Below, piece by piece: positions 9,511 to 46,959 of a DNA stretch of 64,000 nucleotides (position 1 is its first letter; each line of letters opens with the position of its first letter). The DNA is from Methylococcus capsulatus. GTDB taxonomy: Bacteria > Pseudomonadota > Gammaproteobacteria > Methylococcales > Methylococcaceae. Under the pieces are notes generated by a model. The model searched no databases and was not told the origin of the DNA. It was given only the letters and a program-made list of their open reading frames with translations. The position numbers were made by a program, and so were the translations under genes. The stretch spans positions 2,421,513 to 2,485,512 of the forward strand of contig NZ_CP104311.1 of NCBI RefSeq assembly GCF_036864975.1, written 5' to 3'.

Positions 9511-9855
9511 GCAACGGTCACGGCGGCGCGCCATCCGCTCGCGGACGGGCTTGGTGGCCCCAGGGGGGAACAGGCTGCGCCGCCGTGCCCGAAACAACGG
9601 ACGCCGTGGATTTGTGGACAGCCGGCTGCGCCGATTCCCGCCTAACCGGCAAAGCGCGGTTCCCCATGGACAAGCCGTGGAAAACGCTGCGCGTTTCCCA
9701 CCGCTTGCCCACAGGTCGGCGGCTGCCCACAAGCTCCACAGCGTATCATCAACTACTGGATTCATGATTCGGGAAGATACAAGGGTACAGCACGTTGCCG
9801 TTGGATTCCGCAGAAGATCAGCCGCTCATTTCTTTCAGGATGGGTTGCGGTATGC
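9511..9855. other. Non-coding stretch between hicA and sufT
   Basis: 345 bases with no convincing gene. Its main content is the long imperfect inverted repeat listed separately at 9612-9739. The remaining sequence (about 9740-9855) is slightly AT-richer and lies after the stop codons of both flanking convergent genes; I see no strong terminator in it. Confidence 0.5.
9612..9739. repeat. Imperfect inverted repeat with DnaA-box-like units
   Basis: The core is a hairpin: bases 9664-9687 pair with 9691-9714 at 19 of 24 positions around a 3-base loop (central arms GGAAAACGC and GCGTTTCC). Outside it, the segment TTGTGGACAGCCGGC from 9612 is matched on the other side by the reverse complement of 9723-9737 (TTGTGGGCAGCC...), so the symmetry extends over about 128 bases, with extra bases in the left arm. 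The units TGTGGACAG, ATGGACAAG, TTGCCCACA resemble weak DnaA boxes, but none is a perfect TTATCCACA. Confidence 0.6.
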
Positions 9856-10404
9856 TCAAAGCATCCCGAGCTGCAGCTTCGCGGCTTCGGACATCATGTC
9901 GCGGCCCCAGGGCGGGTCGAACACGACGCTGACTTCGACGGCGGTCACGGCGGGGAGGTTCTTCACCAGGTATTCCACGTCGCTTTGCAGCACGGGTCCC
10001 ATGCCGCAGCCGGGTGCGGTGAGGGTCATGACGATTTCCACCTTGAAGCCGCCGCTGCCGTCCGGGATGACGCGGCAGGCATAGACCAGTCCCAGGTCGA
10101 CGATGTTGACCGGAATCTCTGGGTCGTACACGGTGCGCAGGACTTCCCATACGTTCTTTTCCACCGATTCGGCGTCCGCGTCGGGGCTGATGCCGGGCAT
10201 GACGGGTGGTTCCTTGCCCAGCGCGTCGGCATCGGCGCCGGCGATCCGAGCCATGTAGCCGCGCTCGGTGGTGACCGTAAAGTTGCCGCCCAGGGACTGG
10301 AACAGGCTGACGACCTGGCCTTGCGGCAGCACACAAGGGGTGCCGTCGGGAATCTGGACCGCATTGACATCCCGCCGCAGGACGATGTCTTCACGTCCGT
10401 ACAT
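9856..10404 (-). CDS. sufT: Iron-sulfur cluster assembly protein SufT
   Basis: 182 residues starting at the ATG at 10404, which has a strong ribosome site (gaggagg) and gives MYGREDIVLRRDVNAV. The C-terminal half is a DUF59/MIP18 domain with the DPEIPVNIVDLGLVYAC motif and the loop CGMGPVL whose cysteine is conserved in the family. The N-terminal extension of about 80 residues is typical of SufT. It acts in maturation of Fe-S proteins. Its start overlaps the end of the SDR gene by 14 bases, so it is likely co-transcribed with ubiG and the SDR gene. Confidence 0.85.
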   Translation of the reverse strand: MYGREDIVLRRDVNAVQIPDGTPCVLPQGQVVSLFQSLGGNFTVTTERGYMARIAGADADALGKEPPVMPGISPDADAESVEKNVWEVLRTVYDPEIPVNIVDLGLVYACRVIPDGSGGFKVEIVMTLTAPGCGMGPVLQSDVEYLVKNLPAVTAVEVSVVFDPPWGRDMMSEAAKLQLGML

Positions 10405-11158
10405 GCTGAATTTCCTCCTCGATGGCGGATGGGGTGACCGCAGCGGCAATCCGTTCGCCGTTGGCGTAGGGGCTGTCGCTGCGCATCAGGTCGACGAAAC
10501 AAGGGGCAAGCGCCGCCGGTTCCAGGGCGGTTTCGGCGGGAAAGGCCTTGCGCCGCAGGCGGGTGCGGATCGCGCCGGGAGTCAACAGGTTGACCCTGAG
10601 CGTGCCGGCGCCGTCGTATTCATCCGCGAGAACCCGGGCGAAGGCTTCCAGCCCGGCCTTGGCGACGGCATAAGGTCCCCAATAGCTGCGCGGCCGCTCG
10701 GCTTCGCTGTCACTGACGAAGACCACGGCGGCGGCTTCCGAGCGCGTCAGCAGGGGCAACAGGGTCCGGGTCAGGCGGAACGCCCCGGTCAGGTTGACGT
10801 CGAGCGTATCGCGCCACTGGGCGTCGCCGACGTCGCGCAAAGGGCTCAGATAATCCATGTGCGCAGCGCAATGGATCAGCCCATGCAACGCCCCGAGTCG
10901 GGATTCGATCGAGCCGGCGATGGCCGACAATTCTTCGGGCGTGGCGGTGGCCAGGTCCAGCGGCGCCAGGAGCGGTTCGGGGCCACCCTGCCGGACGATG
11001 CGGTCGTAGGTGGCTTCCAGTCGGGCGAGGGTACGGCCCAGCAGGATCACCGTCGCGCCGGCGCCGGCGCAGGCTTCGGCGGCGACGGCGCCGAGATCGC
11101 CCCCGGCGCCGGTGATCACGACGGTGCGGCTTTGGAGTGCAGGGTTGGCAGCGCTCAT
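10391..11158 (-). CDS. Short-chain dehydrogenase/reductase, YciK-like
   Basis: 255-residue Rossmann oxidoreductase. The nucleotide-binding glycine motif TGAGGDLG lies near residue 16, the VNLTGAFRLTRTLLPLL helix is the usual dimer segment, and the catalytic YxxxK is present (PYAVAKAG). The serine of the triad is likely in VVFVSDSEAERP. It resembles YciK-type SDRs of unknown substrate, which often sit beside ubiG in proteobacteria. The four-base overlap with ubiG (11155-11158) supports an operon. Confidence 0.85.
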   Translation of the reverse strand: MSAANPALQSRTVVITGAGGDLGAVAAEACAGAGATVILLGRTLARLEATYDRIVRQGGPEPLLAPLDLATATPEELSAIAGSIESRLGALHGLIHCAAHMDYLSPLRDVGDAQWRDTLDVNLTGAFRLTRTLLPLLTRSEAAAVVFVSDSEAERPRSYWGPYAVAKAGLEAFARVLADEYDGAGTLRVNLLTPGAIRTRLRRKAFPAETALEPAALAPCFVDLMRSDSPYANGERIAAAVTPSAIEEEIQHVRT

Positions 11159-25874: not shown

Positions 25875-28800
25875 ATGGAGCCTAAGTTCGTCCATCTCAG
25901 GATTCACACCGAGTATTCCCTGGTCGACGGGGTGGTCCGGATCAAGCCGCTGGTCAAGCGGCTGACTGAACTCGGCATGCCGGCCGTGGCGGTCACCGAC
26001 CAGTCCAATCTATTTGCGCTAGTCAAGTTCTACAAAGCGGCCATGGGCTCCGGTATCAAGCCGATCGCCGGGGCCGACGTCTGGGTGCAGAACCCGCAGG
26101 ATGTGAGTGCCCCTCACCGGCTCACCCTGCTGGTCCAGAATCAGGAGGGATACCTCGCGCTGACCGAGCTGATTTCACGCAGCTACCAGGAAAACCAGCA
26201 CCAAGGCGTTCCCATGCTGATGCCGGAATGGCTGGCGGATCGCAATACCGGCCTGATCGCGCTCTCGGGCGGCCGCGAAGGCGCCATCGGCCATGCCTTG
26301 ATCGCCGGTAACGGGTCGGAAGCGACGCGGCTGGCCGAATACTGGGGAGGAACGTTCCGGGACCGTTTCTACCTGGAATTGTGCCGGACGGGGCGCCCGA
26401 ACGAGGAGCGCTACATCGATGCAGCGGTGGACCTGGCCGCCCGCCTGGACTTGCCGGTGGTGGCCACCAACGACGTTCGCTTCCTGTCCGCCAAAGAGTT
26501 CGAGGCCCATGAGGCGAGGGTCTGTATCTACCAGGGACGGGTGCTGGACGACCCGCGCCGGCCACAGGACTACAGCGAGCAGCAGTATCTGCGCAGCGAG
26601 GAGGAGATGCTGGCGCTGTTCGCCGATTTGCCGGAGGCGCTGGAGAACAGCGTCGAGATCGCGCGCCGCTGCAACATCAGCCTGACTCTGGGCAAGAACT
26701 TCCTGCCGGATTTCCCGGTGCCGGCGGGCATGACGCCCGACGATTTTTTCTCGGAGCAGTCGCGCAAAGGCTTGAGGGAACGTCTGGCCGTGCGACCGCC
26801 TTCGGGAGCCGGAACTTTGGAAGAACGGACCAAACGTTATTGGGACCGGCTCGAACTGGAGCTGTCCGTGATCTGCCATATGGGCTTTCCAGGCTATTTC
26901 CTGATCGTCGCCGACTTCATCCAGTGGGCCAAGAGCCAGGGTATCCCGGTAGGACCGGGACGCGGCTCCGGTGCGGGCTCCCTGGTAGCCTATGCACTCA
27001 AGATCACCGATCTCGACCCGATCGAATTCGAGCTGCTGTTCGAGCGCTTCCTCAATCCCGAGCGCGTCTCCATGCCAGACTTCGACGTCGATTTCTGCAT
27101 GGAGCGACGCGATGAAGTGATCGACTATGTCGCCCGCAAATATGGCCGCGACAAGGTGTCCCAGATCATCACTTACGGCAGCATGGCCGCCAAGGCCGTG
27201 GTGCGTGATGTCGGCCGGGTGCTGGGTCACCCCTACGGCTTCGTCGACCGTATCGCCAAGCTGATCCCGTTCGAGCTCGGTATCACCTTGAGCAAGGCGC
27301 TGGAGGACAGCGAAGATCTGCGCAAGCTGTACGAGGGAGACGAGGAGGTCAGGGCGCTCCTCGATCTGGCCCAGTCGCTCGAGGGCATCACCCGCAATCC
27401 GGGCAAACATGCCGGTGGGGTGGTGATTGCACCTTCGCGCCTGATCGATTTCAGTCCGCTGTACTGCGAGCCGGGCGGCGGGAACCTGGTGACCCAATTC
27501 GACAAAGACGACGTAGAGGCTGTCGGCCTGGTCAAATTCGACTTCCTGGGACTCCGGACTCTGACGATCATCGACTGGGCGCTGGCCGACATCAATGCCA
27601 AACGGCGGTCAGCTGGAGAGGAGCCGGTCGACATCAACCGGATTCCCTTGGACGATCCCACGACCTATGAGCTGCTGGGAAGGTGCGCGACCACCGCGGT
27701 GTTCCAGCTCGAATCGCGCGGCATGAAGGACCTGATCAAGCGCCTCAAGCCCGACTGCTTCGAGGACATCATCGCCCTGGTCGCGCTGTTTCGCCCCGGC
27801 CCGCTGCAGTCCGGCATGGTGGATGATTACATTAACGTCAAACACGGCCGGACCAAGGCGGAATATCCCCATCCGGTGCTGGAGCCCATCCTCAAACCGA
27901 CCAACGGCGTCATCCTGTACCAGGAGCAGGTGATGCAGATCGCCCGCGATATGGCCGGCTATACCCTGGGCGGAGCCGACCTGTTGCGGCGCGCCATGGG
28001 CAAGAAGAAGCCGGAGGAGATGGCGAAGCAAAGGGAAATCTTTATTGCTGGTGCCACCCGCCAAGGCATAGATCAGAGCATCTCCTCCTACATTTTCGAC
28101 TTGATGGAGAAGTTTGCCGGCTACGGGTTCAACAAATCGCATTCCGCTGCCTATGCCCTGGTGTCGTATCAGACCGCCTGGCTCAAGGCACACTATCCGG
28201 CCGAGTTTATGTCGGCGGTGCTGTCAGCCGACATGGACAATACCGACAAGGTCGTCGTGCTGATTGACGAATGCCGCGAGATGAAGCTGTCTATCTTGCC
28301 GCCCGACATCAATCTCTCTGAATACCGGTTTACCGTCCAGGGCAGGAGGGAAATCCTTTACGGCCTGGGTGCGGTCAAAGGCGTGGGTCAGACCGCGATC
28401 GAAGACATCCTGCAGGAGCGGAAGAACAACGGACCGTTCACCGACCTACTCGACCTGTGCCGACGCATCGACCTCCGCAAGGCCAATCGGCGGGTGTTGG
28501 AGGCGATGATTCGGGCGGGCGTGTTCGATTGTTTCGACCGGAATCGGGCCGCCCTGTTCGCTGCCCTGCCGGACGTGCTGAAGGCGGCGGAGCAGCAAGG
28601 AGTCATGAGCGCTGCCGGTCAGGATGACCTGTTCGGAGGCTTTACTGCGGAAAGCCCCTCGGCCTCCGGCACAAGCCGGGTGGTGGCGGAGGTCGAACCC
28701 TGGAGCGAAGCGGAACGGCTGGCTCAGGAAAAAGCCACGCTGGGTCTGTATCTCACCGGCCATCCGATCACGCCGCACGAACGCGAACTCGAGCAGATCA

Positions 28801-36915: not shown

Positions 36916-38127
36916 TTATTTGACCACGTTGTCGGTCGCCGACACGGCTACTTCCTGGCGGACCGGCCGGTCGGGGGGAGCGACGGTGGCGGGCCGGGCA
37001 AGTTTCAAATAGTTGCGGATCCCTTCGGCGATCGCGGCAGCGATCTGGTTTTGGTAAGCGGAGGAACGCAGTTTCAATTCTTCCTCCGGATTCGAGATAA
37101 AGGCGGTTTCCACCAGGATCGAAGGTACGTCCGGCGACTTCAACACCACGAAGCCGGCTTTCTGTATGCCCGGCTGATGGATGGAGTGAGTTTTCCGCAG
37201 CGCCTGAAGGATGCTGTCCGCGGCGCGGTCGCTGGCCTCCAGTGTGGCATTCTGGGTCAGGTCCAGCAGTACCGAGGCCAGAACTTCGTCCTTGTCGTGC
37301 AATGCCACTCCGCCGATCCGGTCCGCGGCATTTTCACGGTCGGCCAGGCGGCGGGCGGCTTCACTGGTGGCGCCGTGCTCGGAAAGCGTGAATACCGAGG
37401 CACCTCTGGCATGCGGATCGTTATAGGCATCGGCATGCAGTGAGATGAACAGATCGGCGTGTTCTTTGCGGGCGCGTTCCATGCGCTGCCGCAGGTCGAT
37501 GAACTCGTCGTTCCGACGGATCATGACGGGACGGATGCCGGGTTCGGCTTGCAACAGGGCTTCCAACTTTCGGGCGATGGCCAGAACGATGTCTTTTTCC
37601 TGGCTGCCTCCGGCCCCCAGCGCTCCCGTGTCTTTTCCTCCGTGTCCAGCGTCCAGGGCGACCACGAAGCGTTTGCGATGAGGTCCGTCTGATGCTTTGG
37701 CCACTGGGGTCGGTGGCGGCCGGGATGTCATTGCCCCGCCTGCTGTCACGTCCACGGTCAGGCTGGGATTCCCCGAGTCGGTCACCGACAGCAGCGTCCG
37801 GTACTCTGCGGCGGGCCGCAGTTCCACGATCAGATCGATTCTGCCCTTGGCCTTGCTGCGGGTATGCAGGGCGGCGATATAACGGTCTCCCGCCGGGTTG
37901 GGCAGTCCCGGCAGCGCATCAACACCCTCCATCGCAACGATCAGTTGATCTGCCCGCCCAGCCTGTGGTTTTAAGCTGGATCCTTTGGGCACAGTGAGCA
38001 GCAAGCGCGTTACGTTTGCCCCGGATTTCAGACTCACCGTGGCCTTTGCCGCCGGGTCCGCCGATCCGGCCGGCGACAGCAGCGCGATGAGGGCGAACAG
38101 GAATGCAGCCGAAAAAGGATGTCGCAT
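36916..38127 (-). CDS. amiC: N-acetylmuramoyl-L-alanine amidase, AmiC/AmiB type
   Basis: 403 residues starting at the ATG at 38127, which begins a good signal peptide (HPFSAAFLFALIALLSPAGS); 57 further codons upstream are open but not protein-like. An N-terminal AMIN domain (about 30-130) targets the septum, and a C-terminal Amidase_3 domain follows: VALDAGHGGKDTGA with the first zinc ligand, SLHADAYNDPHARGASV with the next histidine, and ILVETAFISNPEEE with the catalytic glutamate. It splits daughter-cell peptidoglycan in the periplasm. Confidence 0.91.
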   Translation of the reverse strand: MRHPFSAAFLFALIALLSPAGSADPAAKATVSLKSGANVTRLLLTVPKGSSLKPQAGRADQLIVAMEGVDALPGLPNPAGDRYIAALHTRSKAKGRIDLIVELRPAAEYRTLLSVTDSGNPSLTVDVTAGGAMTSRPPPTPVAKASDGPHRKRFVVALDAGHGGKDTGALGAGGSQEKDIVLAIARKLEALLQAEPGIRPVMIRRNDEFIDLRQRMERARKEHADLFISLHADAYNDPHARGASVFTLSEHGATSEAARRLADRENAADRIGGVALHDKDEVLASVLLDLTQNATLEASDRAADSILQALRKTHSIHQPGIQKAGFVVLKSPDVPSILVETAFISNPEEELKLRSSAYQNQIAAAIAEGIRNYLKLARPATVAPPDRPVRQEVAVSATDNVVK

Positions 38128-38343
38128 GGGTGGAAGGCGTCGGAACGGGCGCAGTAACGATACTCCGCGTGCCGGGGCTTCTGCAATAACGGGCCTCGTT
38201 CGGGACGAAGCGCGGGATTCAAGATCGCATCGCCTGGCCATTGCCAGGACCCGCAAACGGGACGCCGTCGCCGACACGGATATAATGGGTTGTGGCACGC
38301 TGGCTGCAATTCAATTTGTCCAGGGTTTTTAGGAGTTGGCGAT

Positions 38344-39549
38344 ATGAGATTTGCGTCGGTCGGGGGGATGCGCGTGGCGCAGCTGGCCGGGACCGCGGTT
38401 TTTCTGTGGGCCTGTCAAGGCGAGCCCGAACCGGAACGTTCCGAACGGGTGCAGGCAGACATCGCGGCCACGGCGGCTCCGCAGGAAGCCACGGAACCGG
38501 ATGGAGCGGTGGTGACGGTTCCTCCGGATCTGATGAAGCAGTTGCGTATCGCCGTGGTGTCCGAAGGTGAACTGCACGAGCCATTGCGGGTGCCGGGGCG
38601 GGTTGGCATCGAAGAATTTAGACGCCTGGCCCGTATCGGTGCGACGGTGACCGGACGCATTACCCATATCGATGCCTCCGTGGGCCAGCGGGTGAAGCGG
38701 GGGCAGAAGCTCGCAGTGTTGAACAGCACCGAGTTTTCCGATACCCAGCGGGCCTTCCTGAAGGCGCTTGCCCAGAAACAGTTGCACAGCGTGATCGTCG
38801 AGCGGGCGCGCAAGCTCTACGAATCCGGCGTGATCAGTGAGCTGGAATTCCAGCGCCGCGCCAGCGAGCTGTCGCAGGCGGAGACCGAGTACAACGCCAT
38901 GGCCGATCAGTTGCAGGTACTCGGCATGTCGAGCGAGTCTCTCGCATTGCTGGAAAAGACCCGGGTGATCCAGCCGCTGGTGCCGGTCGTCTCCTCCATC
39001 GACGGCATCGTGATGGAGCGTCACGTCAGCCAGGGCCTGGTGGTCCAGCCGGCGGACGTCCTCTTCGTGGTCGCCGATCTGTCCCAGCTCTGGATTGTAG
39101 CGGAAGTGCCCGAACAGCAGGCCGAGTGGGCACGGCTCGGACAGCAGGTGGAGGCGGAAATCCCGGCGCTGTCGGACCGGCGGGTCAAAGGCCATCTAGT
39201 CTACATCGCTCCGACCGTCGATCCCGAGACACGCACCGTCACGGTGCGCATGGAGGTCGCCAATCCGGACGGCTCGCTCAAACCGGAGATGTTGGCGACC
39301 ATGTTGATTTCGGGCAAGGTGAGCCGCTTGCCTATGGTGCCGGCGGAAGCCGTGGTCCGGGATGGTGATCAGGAAGCGGTATTCGCGCCGGCGGGAGCGG
39401 ACCGGTTTCGCCTGGTACCGGTGAAATTGGGCAAGGAGGTCGGCGGCCAGCGGCCAGCGCTGTCGGGTCTCTCGGCCGGCGATGAGGTGGTGACCGAAGG
39501 TTCATTCCATCTCAACAACGAACGCCTCCGCCGGGAGCTGGAGCAGTAA
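38344..39549 (+). CDS. RND efflux periplasmic adaptor, heavy-metal type (CusB/CzcB-like)
   Basis: 401 residues from the ATG at 38344 with a strong ribosome site (aggag at 38331-38335). N-terminus resembles a lipoprotein signal (AGTAVFLWAC, cysteine at residue 24). Domains of a membrane-fusion protein follow: lipoyl half motifs (GATVTGRITHIDASVGQRVK; VVSSIDGIVMERHVSQGLVV), helical hairpin (about 145-200) and beta barrel (VADLSQLWIVAEVPEQQAEW). It joins the pump encoded three bases downstream to an outer-membrane channel. No such channel gene is adjacent. Confidence 0.9.
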   Translation: MRFASVGGMRVAQLAGTAVFLWACQGEPEPERSERVQADIAATAAPQEATEPDGAVVTVPPDLMKQLRIAVVSEGELHEPLRVPGRVGIEEFRRLARIGATVTGRITHIDASVGQRVKRGQKLAVLNSTEFSDTQRAFLKALAQKQLHSVIVERARKLYESGVISELEFQRRASELSQAETEYNAMADQLQVLGMSSESLALLEKTRVIQPLVPVVSSIDGIVMERHVSQGLVVQPADVLFVVADLSQLWIVAEVPEQQAEWARLGQQVEAEIPALSDRRVKGHLVYIAPTVDPETRTVTVRMEVANPDGSLKPEMLATMLISGKVSRLPMVPAEAVVRDGDQEAVFAPAGADRFRLVPVKLGKEVGGQRPALSGLSAGDEVVTEGSFHLNNERLRRELEQ

Positions 39550-39552
39550 TCC

Positions 39553-42500
39553 GTGATCGAGGCTCTGTTGCGGGCCGCGCTCAAACAGCGACTGATCGTG
39601 CTGGTCGTGGCGCTGGCTCTTTTAGGCTTCGGTCTGGATGCGGCGCGCAAGCTGTCGGTCGACGCCTTTCCGGACGTCACCAATGTCCAGGTGCAGATTG
39701 CCGCCGAAGCCCCCGGCCGCTCGCCGGAGGAGGTCGAGCGCTTCATCACGGCGCCGATCGAGGTCGCCATGACCGGCCTGCCCAACCTCGCCGAGTTGCG
39801 CTCGCTGAACAAAAACGGCCTGTCCATCGTGACCCTGGTGTTCACCGATGCCACCGACGTCTACTTCGCCCGCCAACTGGTGATGGAACGGCTGATCGAA
39901 GTGGCTTCGCGCATGCCGGAGGGTGTCACGCCGGTGCTGGGGCCGGTGTCGACGGCGCTGGGCGAGGTCTACCAGTACACACTGGAGCGTCCGGACGACG
40001 GCCGGCGCACGCTGACCTACGAGGAGCTGCTGGAGCGCCGCACGGTGCAGGACTGGGTGGTGCGGCCCTTACTCCGGACTATTCCCGGTGTCGCCGAGAT
40101 CAATTCCCAGGGCGGCTTCGTCAAGCAATACCAGGTGTTGGCCAACCCGGACCGGCTGCGCCACTACCAGATCGGTCTGCGCGAGGTCTATGAGTCCCTG
40201 GCCCGGAACAACGCCAACAGCGGCGGCGGCATTCTTCCCCATTTCGCCCAGCAGTACCTGATCCGCGGCGTGGCTTTGATTTCGAGCCTGGAAGACATCC
40301 GCAGCATCGTGCTCAAGGAGATCAGCGGGGTGCCGGTGCATGTGGGTGACGTGGCGGAAGTCCGGTTCGGGCACGAGGTGCGAACCGGCGCCATCGTCAA
40401 GAACGGCTACACCGAGTCGGTGGCCGGGGTGGTGATGATGGTGCGGGGCGGCAACGCCAAGGAAATCGTGGCTCGGGTCAAGGCGCGGGTCAAGGAGATC
40501 AACGACAAGGGCATGCTGCCAGGCGGGCTCAAGATCGTGCCGTTCTACGACCGGACCGATCTGGTCGATGCGGCTTTGAACACCGTTACCAAGGCGCTGA
40601 CCGAAGGCGTCTTGCTGGTGATCGGGGTGCTGTTCCTGTTCATGGGCGAAATCCGTTCCAGCCTGATCGTGGTTTCCACCCTGGTCTTGACGCCTCTCCT
40701 GACTTTCCTGGTCATGAACCATTACGGCATCTCGGCCAACCTGATGACGCTCAGCGGCCTCGCCATCGCCATCGGTATGATGGTCGACGGCTCGGTGGTG
40801 GTGGTGGAGAATGCGGTGAGTCAGTTGAGCGAGCGCCGCGACACCGGCGAAAGCCGGGTCCGCATCGTGTTCGAGGCGACTCTGGAAGTCGGCATCCCCG
40901 TAATCTTCGGCGTCGGCATCATCGTGCTGGTGTTCCTGCCCCTTCTCATGCTGGAGGGTATGGAGGGCAAGCTGTTCGCTCCCCTGGCTCTGACCATCGC
41001 CATAGCTCTGGCTATTTCGCTGGTGTTGGGGATGGTGCTGGTGCCGGTGCTCTCGTCCTATCTGCTCAAGCCGCAGGCGCATGCCGAGAGCCGGATCATC
41101 ACCCGGATCAAGCGTCCCTACGCCAGGCTTTTGCACTGGCTGATGCCGCGCGGGGTCCTGGTCAGCGTCATGATGGGGATATTGCTGGCCACGGCGCTGG
41201 CAGTGTTTCCCTTTCTCGGCACTTCGTTCATCCCGACGCTCGACGAAGGGACGATCACGCCCGGCATCACCCGCGTGCCCAGTATCGCCTTCGATGAATC
41301 GCTGCGCATGGAAATGGAGGCGATGAAGCGGGTCATGGAAGTGCCGGGCGTCAAGATGGCGGTATCCAAGCTGGGCCGGGGCGAGAGTCCGGCCGACCCG
41401 GGCGGACCGAACGAGGCCGATCCGGTGGTGACGCTGATGCCGAACCGCGACATGCCGGACGGCTGGAACAAGGCTCGCATCGAGGAGGAAATCCGCCGCA
41501 AGCTCGATGTGCTGCCGGGTATTCAGCTGGTGATGAGTCAGCCCATCGCCGATCGGCTCGACGAAATGGTATCGGGCGTCCGCTCCCAGGTTGCCATCAA
41601 GCTATTCGGAGACGATCTGTTGGTACTGAAGGAAAAGGGCGACGAAATCGCCAGGATTCTCAGGGACATCAAGGGTACCCGGGACTTACGGGTGGAGCGC
41701 GTGACCGGCCAGCAGTATCTCACCATCGAGGTGGACCGCGCTGCCATCGCCCGCCACGGCATCAATGCCGCGGACATCCATGACATCATTGAGACCGCCG
41801 TGGGCGGCAAAAAGGCTACCGAAATCTACGAAGGCCAGCGCCGGTTCGACGCCGTGGTGCGCTATCCGGAGGGTTTCCGTAACAGCGTCGAGCGTATCCA
41901 TACGATCGCCCTGCTGTCTCCGAACGGCGCGGTGGTGCCGCTGGACGACGTGGCCCATATCCGGCTCCAGGACGGTCCGGCCCAGATCAGCCGCGAGACG
42001 GGCCGGCGCCGCATCGTGATCGGTGCCAATCTGGAGGACCGCGACGTTGGCGGCTACGTCGCCGAAGCCCGGGAAAAGATAGCCCGAATGGTCGACCTGC
42101 CGGAAGGTTATTCGCTGGACTGGGGCGGACAGTTCGAGAACATGCAGCGGGCCATGGCCCGGCTCGGCATCACCGTGCCGATCACCATCGCCATGATCTT
42201 CTTCCTGCTGTTCGTACTGTTCAGCTCGCTGCGGTACGCTGCGCTGATCCTGCTGGAACTGCCGTTTTCCTGCATCGGAGGGATTTTCGGCCTGTTCGCG
42301 ACCGGCGAATACCTGTCGGTGCCGGCCTCGGTGGGGTTCATCGCCCTGTTCGGCGTCGCGGTGCTGAACGGCGTGGTGCTGGTTTCCTGCATCATCGACC
42401 TGCGCAAGAATGGCTACAGCCAGTACGATGCGTGCGTGCAGGCCTGCATGCAGCGCTTGCGGCCGGTCCTGATGACCGCGTCGGCCGCGTTGCTCGGCCT

Positions 42501-42654
42501 GATCCCCATGCTGTTCGGGACCGGTCCGGGTTCGGAAATCCAGCGGCCGCTGGCGATCGTGGTGATCAGCGGACTGGTATTTTCGACTGCATTGACCCTG
42601 CTGGTTTTACCTACCGTTTATCGCTGGTTCGAGGAAAAGCGGATCGAGGCCTGA
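39553..42654 (+). CDS. Heavy-metal efflux RND pump (CusA/CzcA family)
   Basis: 1033 residues, GTG start at 39553. Twelve-helix RND transporter with the heavy-metal signatures: DAFPDVTNVQVQIAAEAPGR at the start, GTSFIPTLDEGTITPGITR in the first periplasmic loop after helix 6, and the helix-4 motif AIGMMVDGSVVVVEN near residues 405-419. That motif mixes features: it keeps the VDG of divalent-metal CzcA pumps but has AIG where those have DFG, as in Cu/Ag CusA pumps. So the metal cannot be assigned safely, though the bufferin operon downstream argues for copper. Confidence 0.93.
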   Translation: MIEALLRAALKQRLIVLVVALALLGFGLDAARKLSVDAFPDVTNVQVQIAAEAPGRSPEEVERFITAPIEVAMTGLPNLAELRSLNKNGLSIVTLVFTDATDVYFARQLVMERLIEVASRMPEGVTPVLGPVSTALGEVYQYTLERPDDGRRTLTYEELLERRTVQDWVVRPLLRTIPGVAEINSQGGFVKQYQVLANPDRLRHYQIGLREVYESLARNNANSGGGILPHFAQQYLIRGVALISSLEDIRSIVLKEISGVPVHVGDVAEVRFGHEVRTGAIVKNGYTESVAGVVMMVRGGNAKEIVARVKARVKEINDKGMLPGGLKIVPFYDRTDLVDAALNTVTKALTEGVLLVIGVLFLFMGEIRSSLIVVSTLVLTPLLTFLVMNHYGISANLMTLSGLAIAIGMMVDGSVVVVENAVSQLSERRDTGESRVRIVFEATLEVGIPVIFGVGIIVLVFLPLLMLEGMEGKLFAPLALTIAIALAISLVLGMVLVPVLSSYLLKPQAHAESRIITRIKRPYARLLHWLMPRGVLVSVMMGILLATALAVFPFLGTSFIPTLDEGTITPGITRVPSIAFDESLRMEMEAMKRVMEVPGVKMAVSKLGRGESPADPGGPNEADPVVTLMPNRDMPDGWNKARIEEEIRRKLDVLPGIQLVMSQPIADRLDEMVSGVRSQVAIKLFGDDLLVLKEKGDEIARILRDIKGTRDLRVERVTGQQYLTIEVDRAAIARHGINAADIHDIIETAVGGKKATEIYEGQRRFDAVVRYPEGFRNSVERIHTIALLSPNGAVVPLDDVAHIRLQDGPAQISRETGRRRIVIGANLEDRDVGGYVAEAREKIARMVDLPEGYSLDWGGQFENMQRAMARLGITVPITIAMIFFLLFVLFSSLRYAALILLELPFSCIGGIFGLFATGEYLSVPASVGFIALFGVAVLNGVVLVSCIIDLRKNGYSQYDACVQACMQRLRPVLMTASAALLGLIPMLFGTGPGSEIQRPLAIVVISGLVFSTALTLLVLPTVYRWFEEKRIEA

Positions 42655-42691
42655 GCGCGAACTATAAGATGAATAACCTTCGGGTGATGAT

Positions 42692-43009
42692 GTGAAAGAG
42701 ATCAAGGCTGTCATCCAGCCCTACCGCTTGAGATCCCTGCGCAACGCTTTCCGGCGCATGGCTGGTTTCCCCGGCATGAGCGTCTGGCGGGTGGAGGGTT
42801 GCAGTTCCCACGAAGGTGAGGAAGTGCACGACAGCCTGCGCTGCGAACTGACCGATTTCTCGCACAAGGTCAGGATCGAGATCCTCGCCGAAGAAGCTCA
42901 GGTCGAGGAGATTGTCCGGATCATCTACGAGAATACCCATTCAGGCCGGCTGGGCGACGGCATCGTTTGGGTGACGCCGGTCGAGCAGACCAGGCGGCTG
43001 AGCGAATAA
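42692..43009 (+). CDS. PII-like protein linked to metal efflux
   Basis: 105 residues from GTG 42692, 37 bases after the pump. It has the PII ferredoxin-like fold: MKEIKAVIQPYRLRSLRNAF, a shortened T-loop region (SSHEGEEVHDSLRC) without the uridylylated tyrosine, and the C-terminal HSGRLGDGIVWVTPVEQ in place of the GDGKIFV motif. A divergent PII group associated with heavy-metal RND genes is described in the literature, and this matches in sequence and location. It probably senses a ligand or metal and acts on the pump, but that role is inference. Confidence 0.82.
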   Translation: MKEIKAVIQPYRLRSLRNAFRRMAGFPGMSVWRVEGCSSHEGEEVHDSLRCELTDFSHKVRIEILAEEAQVEEIVRIIYENTHSGRLGDGIVWVTPVEQTRRLSE

Positions 43010-43038
43010 ACCCGCTACGAACAGCGAGGAGCAGGCAA

Positions 43039-43638
43039 GTGGCAAATCCCGAATCGCCGGAACCGGCCGCTCCGGAACGCTGGCTGGACGAGCACGGCGA
43101 CTATCTGTTTCGGTTTGCCCTGTTACGCGTCCGCGACGAAAGCACGGCCGAAGACATGGTGCAGGAAACCCTGCTAGCGGCAATGTCGGCGCAGCATCGT
43201 TGTTCCGGATTGTCCAGCGAAAGGACTTGGCTGACCGGTATCCTCAAGCACAAGGTCGTCGACTACTTGCGCCGCTCCTGGCGTGAACGGTCTTTGGACG
43301 ACGATCCTTCCGCCTATCCGGGCGAGGACTTCGGCATGGACGAACTGTTTGCTCCGGACGGACACTGGGACCGCCAGCCGGCGCATTGGGGCAATCCGTA
43401 CAGCGCTCTGGAACAGAGCCAGTTTTTCGAAGTGCTGCGGAGATGCATCCAGCGGCTGCCGCCCAGGCTGGCCCATCTGTTCGTCCTGAAGGAAATTCAT
43501 GACATGAGCAATGAAGAAATTTGTAAGGAACTCGAGGTGAGCGCGACCAACGTATGGGTGATGCTGTACCGCGCCCGCCTGAGTTTGAGGCAGTGCCTGG
43601 AATATAGATGGTTCGAGAACGACCGGGAGGCAGGCTGA
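43039..43638 (+). CDS. ECF-family RNA polymerase sigma factor
   Basis: 199 residues from GTG 43039 with a good ribosome site (gaggagcagg). Region 2: DYLFRFALLRVRDESTAEDMVQETLLAAM; region 4: QRLPPRLAHLFVLKEIHDMSNEEICKEL followed by the helix-turn-helix recognition part VSATNVWVMLYRARLSLRQC (motifs given in segments). It sits between the metal pump and the bufferin operon and overlaps its probable anti-sigma gene (TGATG). ECF sigma factors are known to head some bufferin operons, so it likely controls them in response to metal. Confidence 0.9.
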   Translation: MANPESPEPAAPERWLDEHGDYLFRFALLRVRDESTAEDMVQETLLAAMSAQHRCSGLSSERTWLTGILKHKVVDYLRRSWRERSLDDDPSAYPGEDFGMDELFAPDGHWDRQPAHWGNPYSALEQSQFFEVLRRCIQRLPPRLAHLFVLKEIHDMSNEEICKELEVSATNVWVMLYRARLSLRQCLEYRWFENDREAG

Positions 43639-43880
43639 TGCTGAGCTGTAAAGACGTCAGCCGCCTGCTGTCGCTCTCCATGGACCAGTCGCTGCCGCTC
43701 CGAAAGCGGGTGGAGATTCGCCTCCATATCTGGTTTTGCAAGGCCTGCCCGAACATCGAGAAGCAGCTCCTGTTCCTGAGGCAGGCGGCCCGCAAGCTGG
43801 ATGAGGAAATGCTCCACTCGGACCGGGTCGAACTGGGTGCCGAGGCGCGGGAACGCATCAGAAAGGCGGTGCGCCAATGA
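43638..43880 (+). CDS. Probable zinc-finger-type anti-sigma factor
   Basis: 80 residues. The start overlaps the sigma factor stop by one base. N-terminal MLSCKDVSRLLSLSMDQSLPL and then HIWFCKACPNIEKQL form the His-x3-Cys-x2-Cys zinc-binding pattern of ZAS anti-sigma factors; there is no membrane helix, so it is cytoplasmic. The metal-binding thiols would allow direct sensing of copper or oxidative stress. A soluble anti-sigma of this size is typical of RsrA/ChrR-like pairs. Confidence 0.75.
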   Translation: MLSCKDVSRLLSLSMDQSLPLRKRVEIRLHIWFCKACPNIEKQLLFLRQAARKLDEEMLHSDRVELGAEARERIRKAVRQ

Positions 43881-43948
43881 CATGATCTTTTTCGGTTCAT
43901 GTGCGCATCGCTCCCATTCGACGTTCCTTACAACTTTTGGAGTGACAC

Positions 43949-44263
43949 ATGAATCAGAAATCCTTGTCCCTGAGCCTTGGCGGTGCCATCGCGACCACTT
44001 TGATCCTCGCCCCTGCCGCGGATGCGGTGGAAAATCCCTTTGCCATGAAAGTCCTTTCGACTCCCACGCAGATGGCCGAGAGCGGCGAAAAAATGAAGGA
44101 CGGAAAGTGCGGGGAAGGGAAATGCGGCGCCGGGAAAAAAGCCGCGACCGGTGTCGACACCGCAAGCAAAGCCAAAGAGGGCAACTGCGGCGCCAGTAAA
44201 ATGAAGGAAGGCGGCTGCAGCGGCAGCGCGAAGAAGGAAGAAGCCGCTCAACCCCGTCAATAA
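43949..44263 (+). CDS. bufA: Bufferin precursor peptide (BufA-like)
   Basis: 104 residues with an N-terminal signal (SLGGAIATTLILAPAADA, cleavage about residue 26). The mature part is Gly/Lys/Ser-rich and carries four cysteines at 54, 59, 80 and 90 in repeated motifs GKCGEGKCG, EGNCG and EGGCS. Such Cys-Gly repeats are the substrates of DUF692 enzymes that turn cysteines into thiooxazoles, giving copper-binding bufferins. The modifying enzyme is the next gene. Ribosome site ggag at 43940-43943. It should be exported to the periplasm by the Sec route. Confidence 0.88.
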   Translation: MNQKSLSLSLGGAIATTLILAPAADAVENPFAMKVLSTPTQMAESGEKMKDGKCGEGKCGAGKKAATGVDTASKAKEGNCGASKMKEGGCSGSAKKEEAAQPRQ

Positions 44264-44281
44264 TCCGGCACTGGGCCTGCC

Positions 44282-45148
44282 ATGGATACCCCATGCGTCT
44301 ATGGGGCGGGCCTCGGCCTCAGGCGGGAGCTGATGCTCCCCCTGCGGGCCGCTGGATCATCCGCCATCGATTTCTTCGAGATTTCGCCGGAAAACTGGAT
44401 CGACGTCGGCGGCCGGTCGGCCGGGGAGCTGCGCTGGTTTACCGAGCGTTTCCCCTTCGTGGCCCATGGCCTGTCGCTGTCCCTGGGTGGCCCCGCGCCT
44501 CTGGACGAGGGATTCGTGAGGCGGATCAAGGCGTTTCTGGATGCCCACCGGATCGCCCTGTACACCGAGCATCTGGCCTATTGCAGCGACGGAGCTCATC
44601 TCTACGATCTGTTGCCTATCCCGTTTACGGAAGAGGCGGTTCATTACGTGGCGGCGCGGATTCGCCGCACCCAGGACGTCCTGGAAAGGCGCATCGCCGT
44701 CGAGAACGCCTCTTACTACGTCCAGGCGCCGATTTCGGAGATGGACGAACTGTCTTTCCTCAAGGCGGTGCTGGAAGAGGCGGACTGCGACCTGCACCTC
44801 GATGTGAACAACCTCTACGTCAACGGCTTCAATCACGGCTACGATCCCCGGGAGTTCCTGCTCGGCTTACCGGGCGATCGCATCGTTTACCTGCACGTCG
44901 CGGGCCACGACTGGGATGGGCCGGATCTGATCATCGACACGCACGGACGGCCCGTCGCCGATCCCGTATGGGAACTGCTTGCGACGGCTTATGAGACATT
45001 CGGGATCTTTCCGACCGCGCTCGAGCGGGATTTCAACCTCCCGGCGCTGGGCAATCTGCTCGCCAAGGTCTCCCGCATCGTCGGGCTGCAGCGAGCCTGT
45101 TGCTCAGAACAGCCTAAACGCGCGGCAAGCGGCGGGGGTGGACTATGA
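44282..45148 (+). CDS. bufB: DUF692 multinuclear iron oxygenase, bufferin-modifying (BufB)
   Basis: 288 residues, TIM-barrel MNIO enzyme. Metal ligands are visible in [69 protein letters not shown] and LERDFNLP; all the family positions appear filled. By analogy with characterised bufferin and methanobactin enzymes it oxidatively modifies precursor cysteines. It follows bufA by 18 bases and its stop overlaps bufC. Confidence 0.92.
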
Positions 45149-45966
45149 GCGGGCTACGGCAGATTCCCGGGAAGACGTCCCTGTTCGTCTTTCAGGACTA
45201 CCAGCGCGAATTCGTCCGGCATCTTCGCGACCCATCCCGTTTCCCGCCGCCCGCCGGCGTATCGGTGGAGCGTGTCGGGATCTACGTGGAACTGGTGCGG
45301 AACAAGATCGAAGACAGCTTGGCGAGCTGCTTTCCCGTCACGCGCGCCCTGCTGGGAACGCGGCGCTGGGAGGATCTGGTCCGCAGGTTCATCGCCGGGC
45401 ATCACTGCCTCTCGCCTCTGTACCGCCAGATTCCGGACGAGTTCCTGGCCTACCTCCGGGACGAATGGAACGAGACCCCGGAGCCGGCGTTTCTGGCGGA
45501 GCTGGCTCATTTCGAATGGATGGAGCTCCATCTCGCCATCGCTAAAGATCGGCTTCCCGACGAACCGCTGGATGGGAATGGCAGCCTGCTGGACGGCTTC
45601 CCTGTATTCGCTCCTGCCATGGCGCTGCTGCGCTACGCCTATCCGGTCCACCGGATCGTTGCAGAAGCTCCGGTTTGGCCCAGCGGATCGAAGGAGCCGG
45701 CAACTCTGCTCGGTTTCCGCGATCGGGCCTACACCGTACGTTTCATCGAACTCAACGAGCCCGCGGCGGCACTGGTCGAGCGCCTGATGACGGGCGCTTC
45801 GTCCGGTAGGACTGTGCTGCGGAAACTGGCATCGGATTGGAAATTCCTCGACCCGGAAGCCTTCATGGCGTTCGGCATGGACATTCTGGTCCGATTGCGG
45901 GAGCAAGGGGCCATCCTGGGTACCCGTCGCGCTCCTTTTGTTCAATGCCAATGGGGTCAGCCATGA
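45145..45966 (+). CDS. bufC: DUF2063 bufferin partner protein (BufC)
   Basis: 273 residues. Begins with the DUF2063/HvfC-type N-terminal domain ([21 protein letters not shown], then [20 protein letters not shown], a four-helix region) and continues with a second domain. It is the standard companion of DUF692 enzymes and helps them bind the precursor peptide. Four-base overlaps with both neighbours show tight coupling. Confidence 0.9.
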
Positions 45967-46559
45967 ACGAATCCTTCGAAATTTGCCGCCCGGATGCATC
46001 GCGCGAAGACCGGAAACCTCTGGGGCCGTCGAGGCTGCGGTGGTTGTCGGGATGGCTGGAATCGCAAGCCTCGGGGGCGCCGCCGCTGTTGCTCCGGCTG
46101 CTTCTCGCGTGGGAGTTCTGGGAGGCCGGGTTGATGAAGCTTTACGGGGAAAACTGGTTCGCCGATCTCAGCTTTCCATTTCCCTTCAATCTGTTCCCGC
46201 CATCTGTCAACTGGTGGCTGGCGACCGGTTTCGAACTGCTCGGCGCCATCGCTTTGGCGCTGGGGGTGGCGACGCGGCTGTTCAGCCTCGCCCTGGCCGT
46301 CCTCACCGTCGTCGCCATCGCCGCGGTCCATTGGCCTTCAGACTGGGCCAGCCTCTCGGACTTGGCCCAAGGGTATGCGATCACCGATGAAGGTCATGGC
46401 AACTTCAAACTGCCGCTGATGTATCTCGCCATGCTCCTGCCGCTGTTGTTCGGCGGCGCCGGGCGATACAGCCTGGATGCGTGGGTTTCCGGCAGGGCCC
46501 GGCGGTGCGGTTTTAATCACGCGCAGGGAGCGGATGAGATCAGAACGGATTCGGGCTGA
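45963..46559 (+). CDS. DoxX-family membrane protein of the bufferin operon
   Basis: 198 residues with four membrane helices ([78 protein letters not shown]) and the DoxX signature [12 protein letters not shown]. DoxX proteins are frequent last genes of bufferin operons; they may handle electrons or membrane thiols, but the role is not settled. The C-terminus runs 20 bases into the oppositely oriented tsaE gene. Confidence 0.86.
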
Positions 46560-46959
46560 TTCGGAGCCGCCTTCCCGTGTTCTCCTGCTCCAGGTATACC
46601 TCCAGGTCGGGCGAGGGCAGGAGGCCTTCGCCCTTTTCGGGCCATTCCACGAAGCACAGGCTGTCCGGCCGGAAATAATCGCGGATGCCCATCCATTCGA
46701 GTTCTTCCGGGTCGTTCAGGCGGTACAGGTCGAAATGGTAGACGGTGCGGTCGCCCAGAGGGTATTCCTCGACCAGGGTGTAAGTGGGGCTCTTCACCGT
46801 GCCCTGGTAGCCGGAGGCGCGCAGATAGCCGCGCACCAGGGTGGTCTTGCCGGCACCCAGATTGCCGTGGAGGAACACGACATATCCGGGCGGCAGAGCC
46901 GTCTGCAGGCGGGCGGCGAAGGCCAGCGTCGCCTCCTCGTCGGGAAGGTATAGCATCAT
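46540..46959 (-). CDS. tsaE: tRNA threonylcarbamoyladenosine biosynthesis ATPase TsaE
   Basis: 139 residues from the ATG at 46959 (or the adjacent one at 46956). P-loop [18 protein letters not shown] near residue 30, [10 protein letters not shown] and the [21 protein letters not shown] region are typical. It works with TsaB and TsaD to make t6A in tRNA. The start overlaps the nnr stop by four bases. Its C-terminal coding end overlaps the tail of the DoxX gene on the opposite strand by 20 bases. Confidence 0.93.

Follow-up and report, generated by a model that had tools for sequence, protein, structure and literature searches.

In Neisseria, the extracytoplasmic function (ECF) sigma factor sigma-E (NMB2144) and the zinc-binding anti-sigma (ZAS) protein MseR (NMB2145) belong to the six-gene operon NMB2140-2145 (PMC2893595, PMC3240639; statements on cited papers refer throughout to the parts of their text that were available). 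The consensus promoter of sigma-E reads GTMAGBWTT, a spacer of 12-13 bases and CGTCTAAH (PMC2893595), a spacing of 16-17 bases when counted as for the motif TGTAAG-Ns-CGAC used below. In Caulobacter, an intragenic promoter is located inside cabp, the gene preceding that for the ECF sigma factor SigV (PMC13171946). The locus described here comprises nine genes at positions 38344-46559 of a 64-kb window from Methylococcus capsulatus (contig NZ_CP104311.1; the window is the whole stretch analyzed), which include genes encoding an ECF sigma factor (43039..43638, + strand) and a ZAS anti-sigma factor (43638..43880, + strand) followed by the precursor and enzymes of a ribosomally synthesized and post-translationally modified peptide (RiPP) and preceded by a metal efflux pump of the resistance-nodulation-division (RND) class. 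The remaining genes of NMB2140-2145 are presumably gonophorin/captophorin genes. The results point, with a probability of about 0.78, to two adjacent but separate units, the second of which would be transcribed from a promoter inside its own sigma gene at 43522-43547 (+ strand), giving output and negative feedback without self-amplification. That the site is a promoter and that it is read by the sigma factor of the window we infer from the sequence.

Proteins were assigned to families with the cut-offs of curated models (Pfam, TIGR/NF models), and each of the nine exceeded one. The sigma factor belongs to TIGR02943 (205.4 bits, cut-off 162.2) with region 4 at residues 131-183, and the 80-residue anti-sigma factor to zf-HC2 and NF052368 (59.2 bits, cut-off 50), with no membrane-like stretch seen by eye. 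The ZAS signature of the latter, Hx3Cx2C with an upstream cysteine, is formed by Cys4, His30, Cys34 and Cys37, positions identical to those in MseR, and the sigma-E promoter is of the same class and spacing as the site in the window (PMC2893595). The layouts differ in that the Neisseria sigma factor lies in the operon that it controls, an arrangement of positive autoregulation (PMC3240639), whereas in the window the sigma gene itself contains the copy and the sigma factor would be left out. The Caulobacter case is alike in that a promoter within coding sequence is tied to an ECF sigma factor; it differs in that the promoter is in the preceding gene and drives sigV, and in that it comes from a single species, the available text describing no codon constraint across phyla (PMC13171946). 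A literature search covering few subscription papers found no account of any TIGR02943-family ECF sigma gene with an internal promoter. As far as that search shows, the embedded promoter would be a novel arrangement within an established class of circuit, while the peptide cluster and the pump pair are each of already known kinds.

The promoter class was derived from 138 TIGR02943-type sigma genes, which include 93 representatives below 75% identity. The sample had three sources: the first 41 (L109-L149) of the best 80 of 327 confirmed relatives from an alignment scan, with L150-L188 left out as distant; 90 places above the family cut-off listed by a phylum search (30 returned loci, not counting L212, which is the window's own gene, and 60 fetched); and nine loci with sigma hits in the neighbourhood comparison, with L084 omitted for its short contig. 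L132 and L145, dropped from the resulting 140 before counting for a gap at the motif column, both carry the motif. When the sigma genes of the 138 loci were masked, TGTAAG-Ns-CGAC was found 33 times at a spacer of 16 and 13 times at 17, while the remaining spacers between 8 and 27 gave 0-4 occurrences each; with a control -35 sequence every spacer gave 0-2. The same form stands before the precursor gene in relatives in which that gene does not directly follow the sigma and anti-sigma genes (L087-L097 and L099): TGTAAG-N16-CGAC in 9/12, TGTAAC-N16-CGAC in 2/12 and TGTAAG-N16-TGAC in 1/12 (L091). These results suggest that the promoter class of the sigma family is TGTAAG-N16/17-CGAC (GTMAG...CGWC).

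The pattern TGTAAGG-N12-22-CGAC has a single match in the window, at 43522-43547 within the sigma gene, with 0.05 expected by chance. The site has the -35 and -10 sequences of the class and its 16-base spacer, and spans the codons for C-K-E-L-x-x-x-A-T (residues 162-170) in the helix-turn-helix of region 4.2. From the end of the -10 element to the start codon of the anti-sigma gene are 91 bases, and to the precursor gene 402. Upstream of the precursor, sigma and adaptor genes a scan of the window found the family promoter nowhere on the + strand, which rules out a conventional family promoter at those places. Instead, transcription of the peptide operon could start at an unrecognised promoter within the 68 bases that precede the precursor gene, or depend on read-through alone. 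The gap is partly conserved among the window, L065, L084 and L085 as judged by eye, but it contains no family promoter on the + strand, and all 12 relatives with a distant sigma gene do carry that promoter or a near-match before the precursor; this explanation is unlikely. Genome-wide, TGTAAGG-N14-20-CGAC has 5 matches against 15 for the reversed control, of which only the embedded copy has a 16-base spacer. Two further exact matches to TGTAAG-N16-CGAC are at G000:C1:2243847 and 3303342. Within another gene of the window an isolated TGTMAG-N16-CGAC (28222-28247, +) is probably due to chance.

The nucleotides of the site are conserved beyond what the protein demands. The strict motif occurs inside 64 of the 138 sigma genes, while random synonymous recoding with GC-matched codon usage gave a mean of 2.14 and a maximum of 7 in 300 draws; among the representatives the count was 31/93 (recoding 1.26, maximum 6). 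The Neisseria-like class TGTMAG-N16-CGWC occurs in 75/138 (recoding 2.67, maximum 8), and all 75 copies begin in frame at residue 162. In a ranking of the 199 columns by third-base bias, the first, second and fourth places went to residues 169, 162 and 163 (z 10.5, 7.5 and 6.8), and residues 164 and 170, more weakly biased, were still among the top 15. Lys163 is encoded by AAG in 76/78 sequences, compared with 43/122 at Lys70 and 56/137 at Lys72; Cys162 by TGT in 111/134, compared with 62/136 at Cys136 and 54/136 at Cys186; and NCG accounts for 98/112 of the A/P/S/T codons at residue 169, with 54% at the next best column. The 78 sequences with Lys163 were also divided by GC content. In loci above 55% GC, TGT was used in 23/24 (controls 4/24 and 7/24), and in loci below 45% GC, AAG was used in 25/26 (controls 7/25 and 5/26), so that both choices run against local composition.

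These counts bear on the proposal that the motif is a mere by-product of the conserved protein motif CKELxxSxTN. Cys162 and the T/S-N pair are indeed conserved in much of the family, but synonymous recoding retained 2.1 motifs against the 64 observed, and the codons at 162, 163 and 169 are contrary to usage. The -35 and -10 codons also co-occur, NCG being found at residue 169 in 78 of the 86 genes with TGT plus AAG or CAG, with P, A, S and T all represented, against 20/52 of the others. A by-product is on these results extremely improbable. The finding that residue 169 is A, P, S or T in all embedded genes was discarded as evidence, as it follows from the definition of the motif.

Conservation of this kind reveals a constraint and not its nature, and the nucleotides could be conserved for another reason at the level of DNA or RNA, as a site of polymerase stalling or repression or as an mRNA element. 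Residue 69 (43243-43245 in the window), likewise constrained without explanation, lends this some weight. Opposed to it, the sequence and spacer match those of promoter-like sites that the same loci carry outside their sigma genes, as well as those of the Neisseria sigma-E promoter (PMC2893595), and the biased columns of the stretch (162, 163 and 169, more weakly 164 and 170) are the -35 and -10 positions. Such a role is improbable, and on computational grounds a constraint on the DNA at sites of the 43522-43547 type is strongly supported and its being that of a promoter well supported.

The motif or its relaxed form was found in 90/138 genes and 52/93 representatives, in Pseudomonadota and Bacteroidota; the -10 form among the 90 was CGAC in 83 and CGTC in 7. 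On a quick tree built without the motif columns its distribution required 14 changes, at least 4 of them forced by well-supported branches, compared with 30.6 for shuffled labels. A copy within 600 bases upstream of the sigma gene on the same strand was found at 0/84 embedded loci and 6/54 others, some of the stretches being cut by contig ends, and some loci lacking the embedded copy carry one after the sigma gene or near the anti-sigma gene. In L149, L200, L191, L195, L201 and L205, which have no embedded copy, the family promoter is 9-217 bases after the sigma gene, as though it had shifted within the operon. The order sigma, anti-sigma, precursor and multinuclear non-heme iron-dependent oxidative enzyme (MNIO) occurs with an embedded copy at eight loci including the window (relaxed in L086). 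Seven of the eight have no other TGTAAG-N16/17-CGWC in the stretch examined, while L113 has a second, facing a DoxX gene. A divergent copy precedes the MNIO gene in L129 and L131. It is probable that there is a family of ECF sigma factors whose genes house the target promoter in the codons for their DNA-reading domain, region 4.2, nearly always as CGAC in Pseudomonadota and as CGTC in Bacteroidota, forming portable circuits that would activate inhibitor and effectors and not the sigma factor, with the need of the DNA having shaped the residues used.

Several observations weigh against an embedded promoter of this kind. The motif is absent from 54/138 loci (48/138 by the wider TGTMAG-type test), and the counts are not independent, as 61 of the 138 loci form one family (f47), outside which the strict motif was found in 20/77; L099 and L135 are the same locus, counted twice among the 138 and once among the 93 representatives. 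All five embedded Bacteroidota carry CGTC and not CGAC, and the Neisseria -10 element is likewise CGTC where that of the window is CGAC (PMC2893595). In the relaxed embedded loci L250, L277 and L143 the sigma gene is also followed by a + strand copy. The lineage of the window itself offers few independent cases, the site being perfect in the window, L065, L084 and L085 and reading TGTAACG in L086. In the 93 diverse sigma genes residue 69 ranks third in bias (z 7.1), favouring C, without explanation. A near-match on the - strand, TGTAAG-N16-CGAT at 43907-43932, points towards the anti-sigma gene from within the anti-sigma/precursor gap and is a possible antisense start; it recurs in L065 (10267-10292) and, as judged by eye, not in L084 or L085. 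The looser TGTMAG-N16-CGWC is not enriched across the genome (10 matches against 24 for the control), and because of this the direct targets of the sigma factor in the genome may be this one operon. With regard to the trigger, meningococcal sigma-E gave no response to oxidants (PMC2893595), and the Haemophilus relative responds to them (PMC7907618).

Two further observations touch the same sites. A wider regulon was considered and dropped, as the nine non-embedded genomic sites, most of which lie within or overlap other open frames, offered no convincing target. By eye, the site at L289 stands before a lipoprotein-like frame. Residue 63 of the sigma gene also has a third-base bias towards C (z 5.4 in the diverse set).

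In the proposed circuit the ZAS anti-sigma factor would release the sigma factor upon a trigger that, guessed from relatives, could be metal or thiol stress, and the freed sigma factor would bind and fire 43522-43547. Transcription would start near 43553-43558, leaving a leader of approximately 80-85 bases ahead of the start codon of the anti-sigma gene (43638), and the transcript would encode the anti-sigma factor, precursor, MNIO, HvfC and HvfX, excluding the full sigma gene and the pump. Because the promoter lies within the sigma gene and leaves the full gene off the transcript, there would be no self-amplification, only output and negative feedback; and because the site is downstream of the pump and PII genes, the sigma factor would drive the anti-sigma gene and peptide operon and not the pump. 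Basal sigma factor would come from read-through of the pump-PII operon, 29 bases separating the PII and sigma genes, or from another promoter. If this is correct, the sigma gene both encodes the reader and contains the site being read, which would explain how cassettes of sigma factor, anti-sigma factor and peptide move and are lost as units with control intact. The usual picture of ECF factors would shift from positive autoregulation to output with negative feedback, and predictions of operons and regulons limited to intergenic DNA would need correction, as such predictions would here show the peptide cluster without the promoter of its sigma factor.

The earlier note had proposed that the two halves of the locus form a single copper regulon joining RND efflux to the peptide, so that pump, PII, sigma factor and peptide operon would be co-transcribed and induced by copper. 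Its description of nine genes in a row on one strand with gaps of at most 68 bases was borne out by the coordinates and by the family models; the successive spacings are 3, 37, 29, overlap, 68, 18, overlap and overlap. Consistent with the regulon are the common strand, the short gaps, with 29 bases between PII and sigma genes, the pattern scans, in which 37900-46900 gave no sigma-70-type promoter on the + strand and the halves were not separated by a + strand terminator (terminator-like + strand sites are all inside genes), and the order kept in L065. The neighbourhood comparison that the note had called for speaks for separate units, in that pump-PII and cassette occur apart. Sigma or peptide genes were found at 0/15 pump-PII loci outside the genus, with 6-20 kb examined per locus. 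Inside the genus the adaptor-RND-PII genes are kept between the same neighbours in 6/6 genomes (in G093 across a contig break), and the cassette is lacking in 3/6 (G037, G017 and G003), deleted in one and absent in two. In addition, the RND permease has none of the Cu(I) methionines of CusA, and the sole full match to the sigma-family promoter near the genes lies downstream of pump and PII. A single copper regulon is thereby distinctly unlikely and the claim was not upheld: adjacency of a pump and copper peptide genes is not the same as one copper regulon.

The full cassette is present in the genus in the genome of the window and in L065, with the same gene order; in L068/L084 both halves stop at contig ends in a manner fitting that order. 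Contigs stop inside the region in L068, L084 and L086. The G037 locus (L064) retains a deletion scar at 9633-9964, in which the beginning of the sigma gene runs directly into the end of the DoxX gene through a 9-base GGACTTGGC common to both. The cassette has left no trace in L066, and in L067 an unrelated stretch occupies its place. That place in L067 holds a broken stretch at approximately 10193-10560 (by eye), which we take from its appearance to resemble a small transposase remnant. Elsewhere in the family, two genomes (L085 and L086) have the sigma, anti-sigma, precursor and MNIO genes on short contigs without a preceding pump-PII pair, the L085 cassette being preceded by an unrelated gene, Meth_synt_2. 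The halves are separable units joined in one genus, because pump-PII stands without the cassette outside the genus and survives its loss inside it, and because the cassette stands elsewhere (L085, L086); the pump outlives the peptide. Read-through from pump and PII into the sigma gene over the 29 bases is possible and would be a one-way link.

The first unit would be a heavy-metal efflux (HME) operon, probably for divalent metals, consisting of an RND periplasmic adaptor of the CzcB/CusB type (38344..39549, +; HlyD_D23 210.6 bits, cut-off 30, with RND_mfp also above cut-off), an HME-type RND permease (39553..42654, +; TIGR00914 CusA/CzcA family, 1073.6 bits, cut-off 701.45) and a PII-like protein of the RND-associated group (42692..43009, +; Pfam P-II 59.5 bits, cut-off 25). 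An outer-membrane channel gene is not among the nine. The best solved relative of the permease was ZneA (672.5 bits), with CusA at 612.9 bits. The three-methionine Cu(I) site of CusA is here assumed to be numbered M573/M623/M672, and the zinc ligands of ZneA D602, D654 and D658. Counted along the alignments, G571, E621 and E671 of the permease are opposite the CusA methionines, with M672 adjacent to E671, and D615, D667 and E671 are opposite the ZneA ligands. A CusA-type Cu(I) pump was discarded as a reading, the three methionines being lacking at the aligned places. Because acidic residues occupy the zinc places of ZneA and the CusA methionines are absent, the permease is probably a pump for divalent cations and not for Cu(I). 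No class motif for sorting the pump was found in the available text of PMC10872679.

That the PII-type protein belongs to the group associated with heavy-metal RND pumps, as noted earlier, was supported by the comparison of 20 loci carrying the closest PII-like proteins among 201 genomes of the order, as the RND gene adjoins the PII-like gene in 20/20 and in the window. By its P-II domain and HME-RND adjacency the protein appears to be of the PII-NG type. It resembles PII-NG proteins encoded beside czcABC, for example GSU2134, in that a PII-domain gene adjoins an HME-RND pump, and the Geobacter PII-NG-czcABC operon rises under cobalt stress (PMC7726332). It differs from them in that here the pump-PII genes are followed by a captophorin cassette, which two genomes have and a third, where a contig break intervenes, probably has.

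The second unit would be a self-contained captophorin cassette of sigma factor, anti-sigma factor, EGKCG precursor, MNIO, HvfC and HvfX that came to sit behind the first in the genus. The precursor (43949..44263, +) is of the EGKCG/HvfA kind (NF050137 KCGExKCG 23.8 bits, cut-off 19.5) with the repeats DGKCG, EGKCG, EGNCG and EGGCS and, judged by eye, a signal-like stretch at the N-terminus; it scored 28.9 bits with the full-length HvfA model NF050188, under the cut-off of 95. It is followed by an MNIO (DUF692) maturase of the HvfB family (44282..45148, +; NF003818 397.2 bits, cut-off 360), the HvfC/DUF2063 partner (PME1; 45145..45966, +; NF050145 236.2 bits, cut-off 142) and the DoxX-family HvfX (45963..46559, +; NF050144 138.4 bits, cut-off 80), so that all three models beside the precursor were passed. 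The locus had been described as a bufferin RiPP operon with an ECF sigma/anti-sigma pair. The pair and the bufferin-like operon stand, but with an EGKCG/HvfA precursor and a maturase of the HvfB, not the BufB, family: the Pfam scan of the precursor gave zero matches, hence no DUF2282, and the maturase scored 250.8 bits with the BufB model NF050167, under its cut-off of 310, which rules out bufferin-1. RiPP clusters of the EGKCG type (HvfA/oxazolin, "captophorin") accompanied by an ECF sigma factor and a ZAS anti-sigma factor are known, and the peptide operon is one of them.

The EGKCG group has been named Buf_EGKCG/oxazolin (PMC12452194) and captophorin (PMC13097082). The cassette is like the EGKCG captophorins HvfA/oxazolin, fontiphorin and gonophorin in its EGKCG-type precursor, HvfB-type MNIO and DUF2063 partner, DoxX being mentioned there too, and unlike them in a precursor that has KCG in only two units, NCG and GCS in the others, and scores under the full-length HvfA model, and in its position behind an RND-PII operon (PMC13097082). 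Captophorins bind copper (PMC13097082), and the window's peptide may do so as well. A 5-thiooxazole on cysteine is a further mark of the group, each modified Cys costing 4 Da, and FonA, which has two repeats, lost 8 Da (PMC13097082). With bufferin 1 clusters that include an ECF sigma factor it shares the grouping of MNIO, DUF2063, DoxX and sigma genes, but it lacks a DUF2282 precursor, its MNIO is under the BufB cut-off, and its anti-sigma factor is a ZAS zf-HC2 protein where those clusters have NrsF (PMC12452194).

In the available text of a microarray study of M. capsulatus (Bath) (PMC4831470), efflux, heavy metal, DUF692, DoxX and P-II are unmentioned, and sigma appears in other contexts only. 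An Rfam scan of the window at gathering thresholds gave no known RNA element, and a tRNA scan of the window found none. The host is probably a methanotroph because its 3.43-Mb genome, a single contig, has two AMO/PmoA-family loci. The same genome has a second captophorin-type locus at G000:C1:1117590-1118393 (L063 9181-11175), in whose 19 kb TGTAA(G/C)-N13-19-CGAC was not found; it encodes an EMKCG-type precursor with no family match, an HvfB-type MNIO and a DUF2063 protein.

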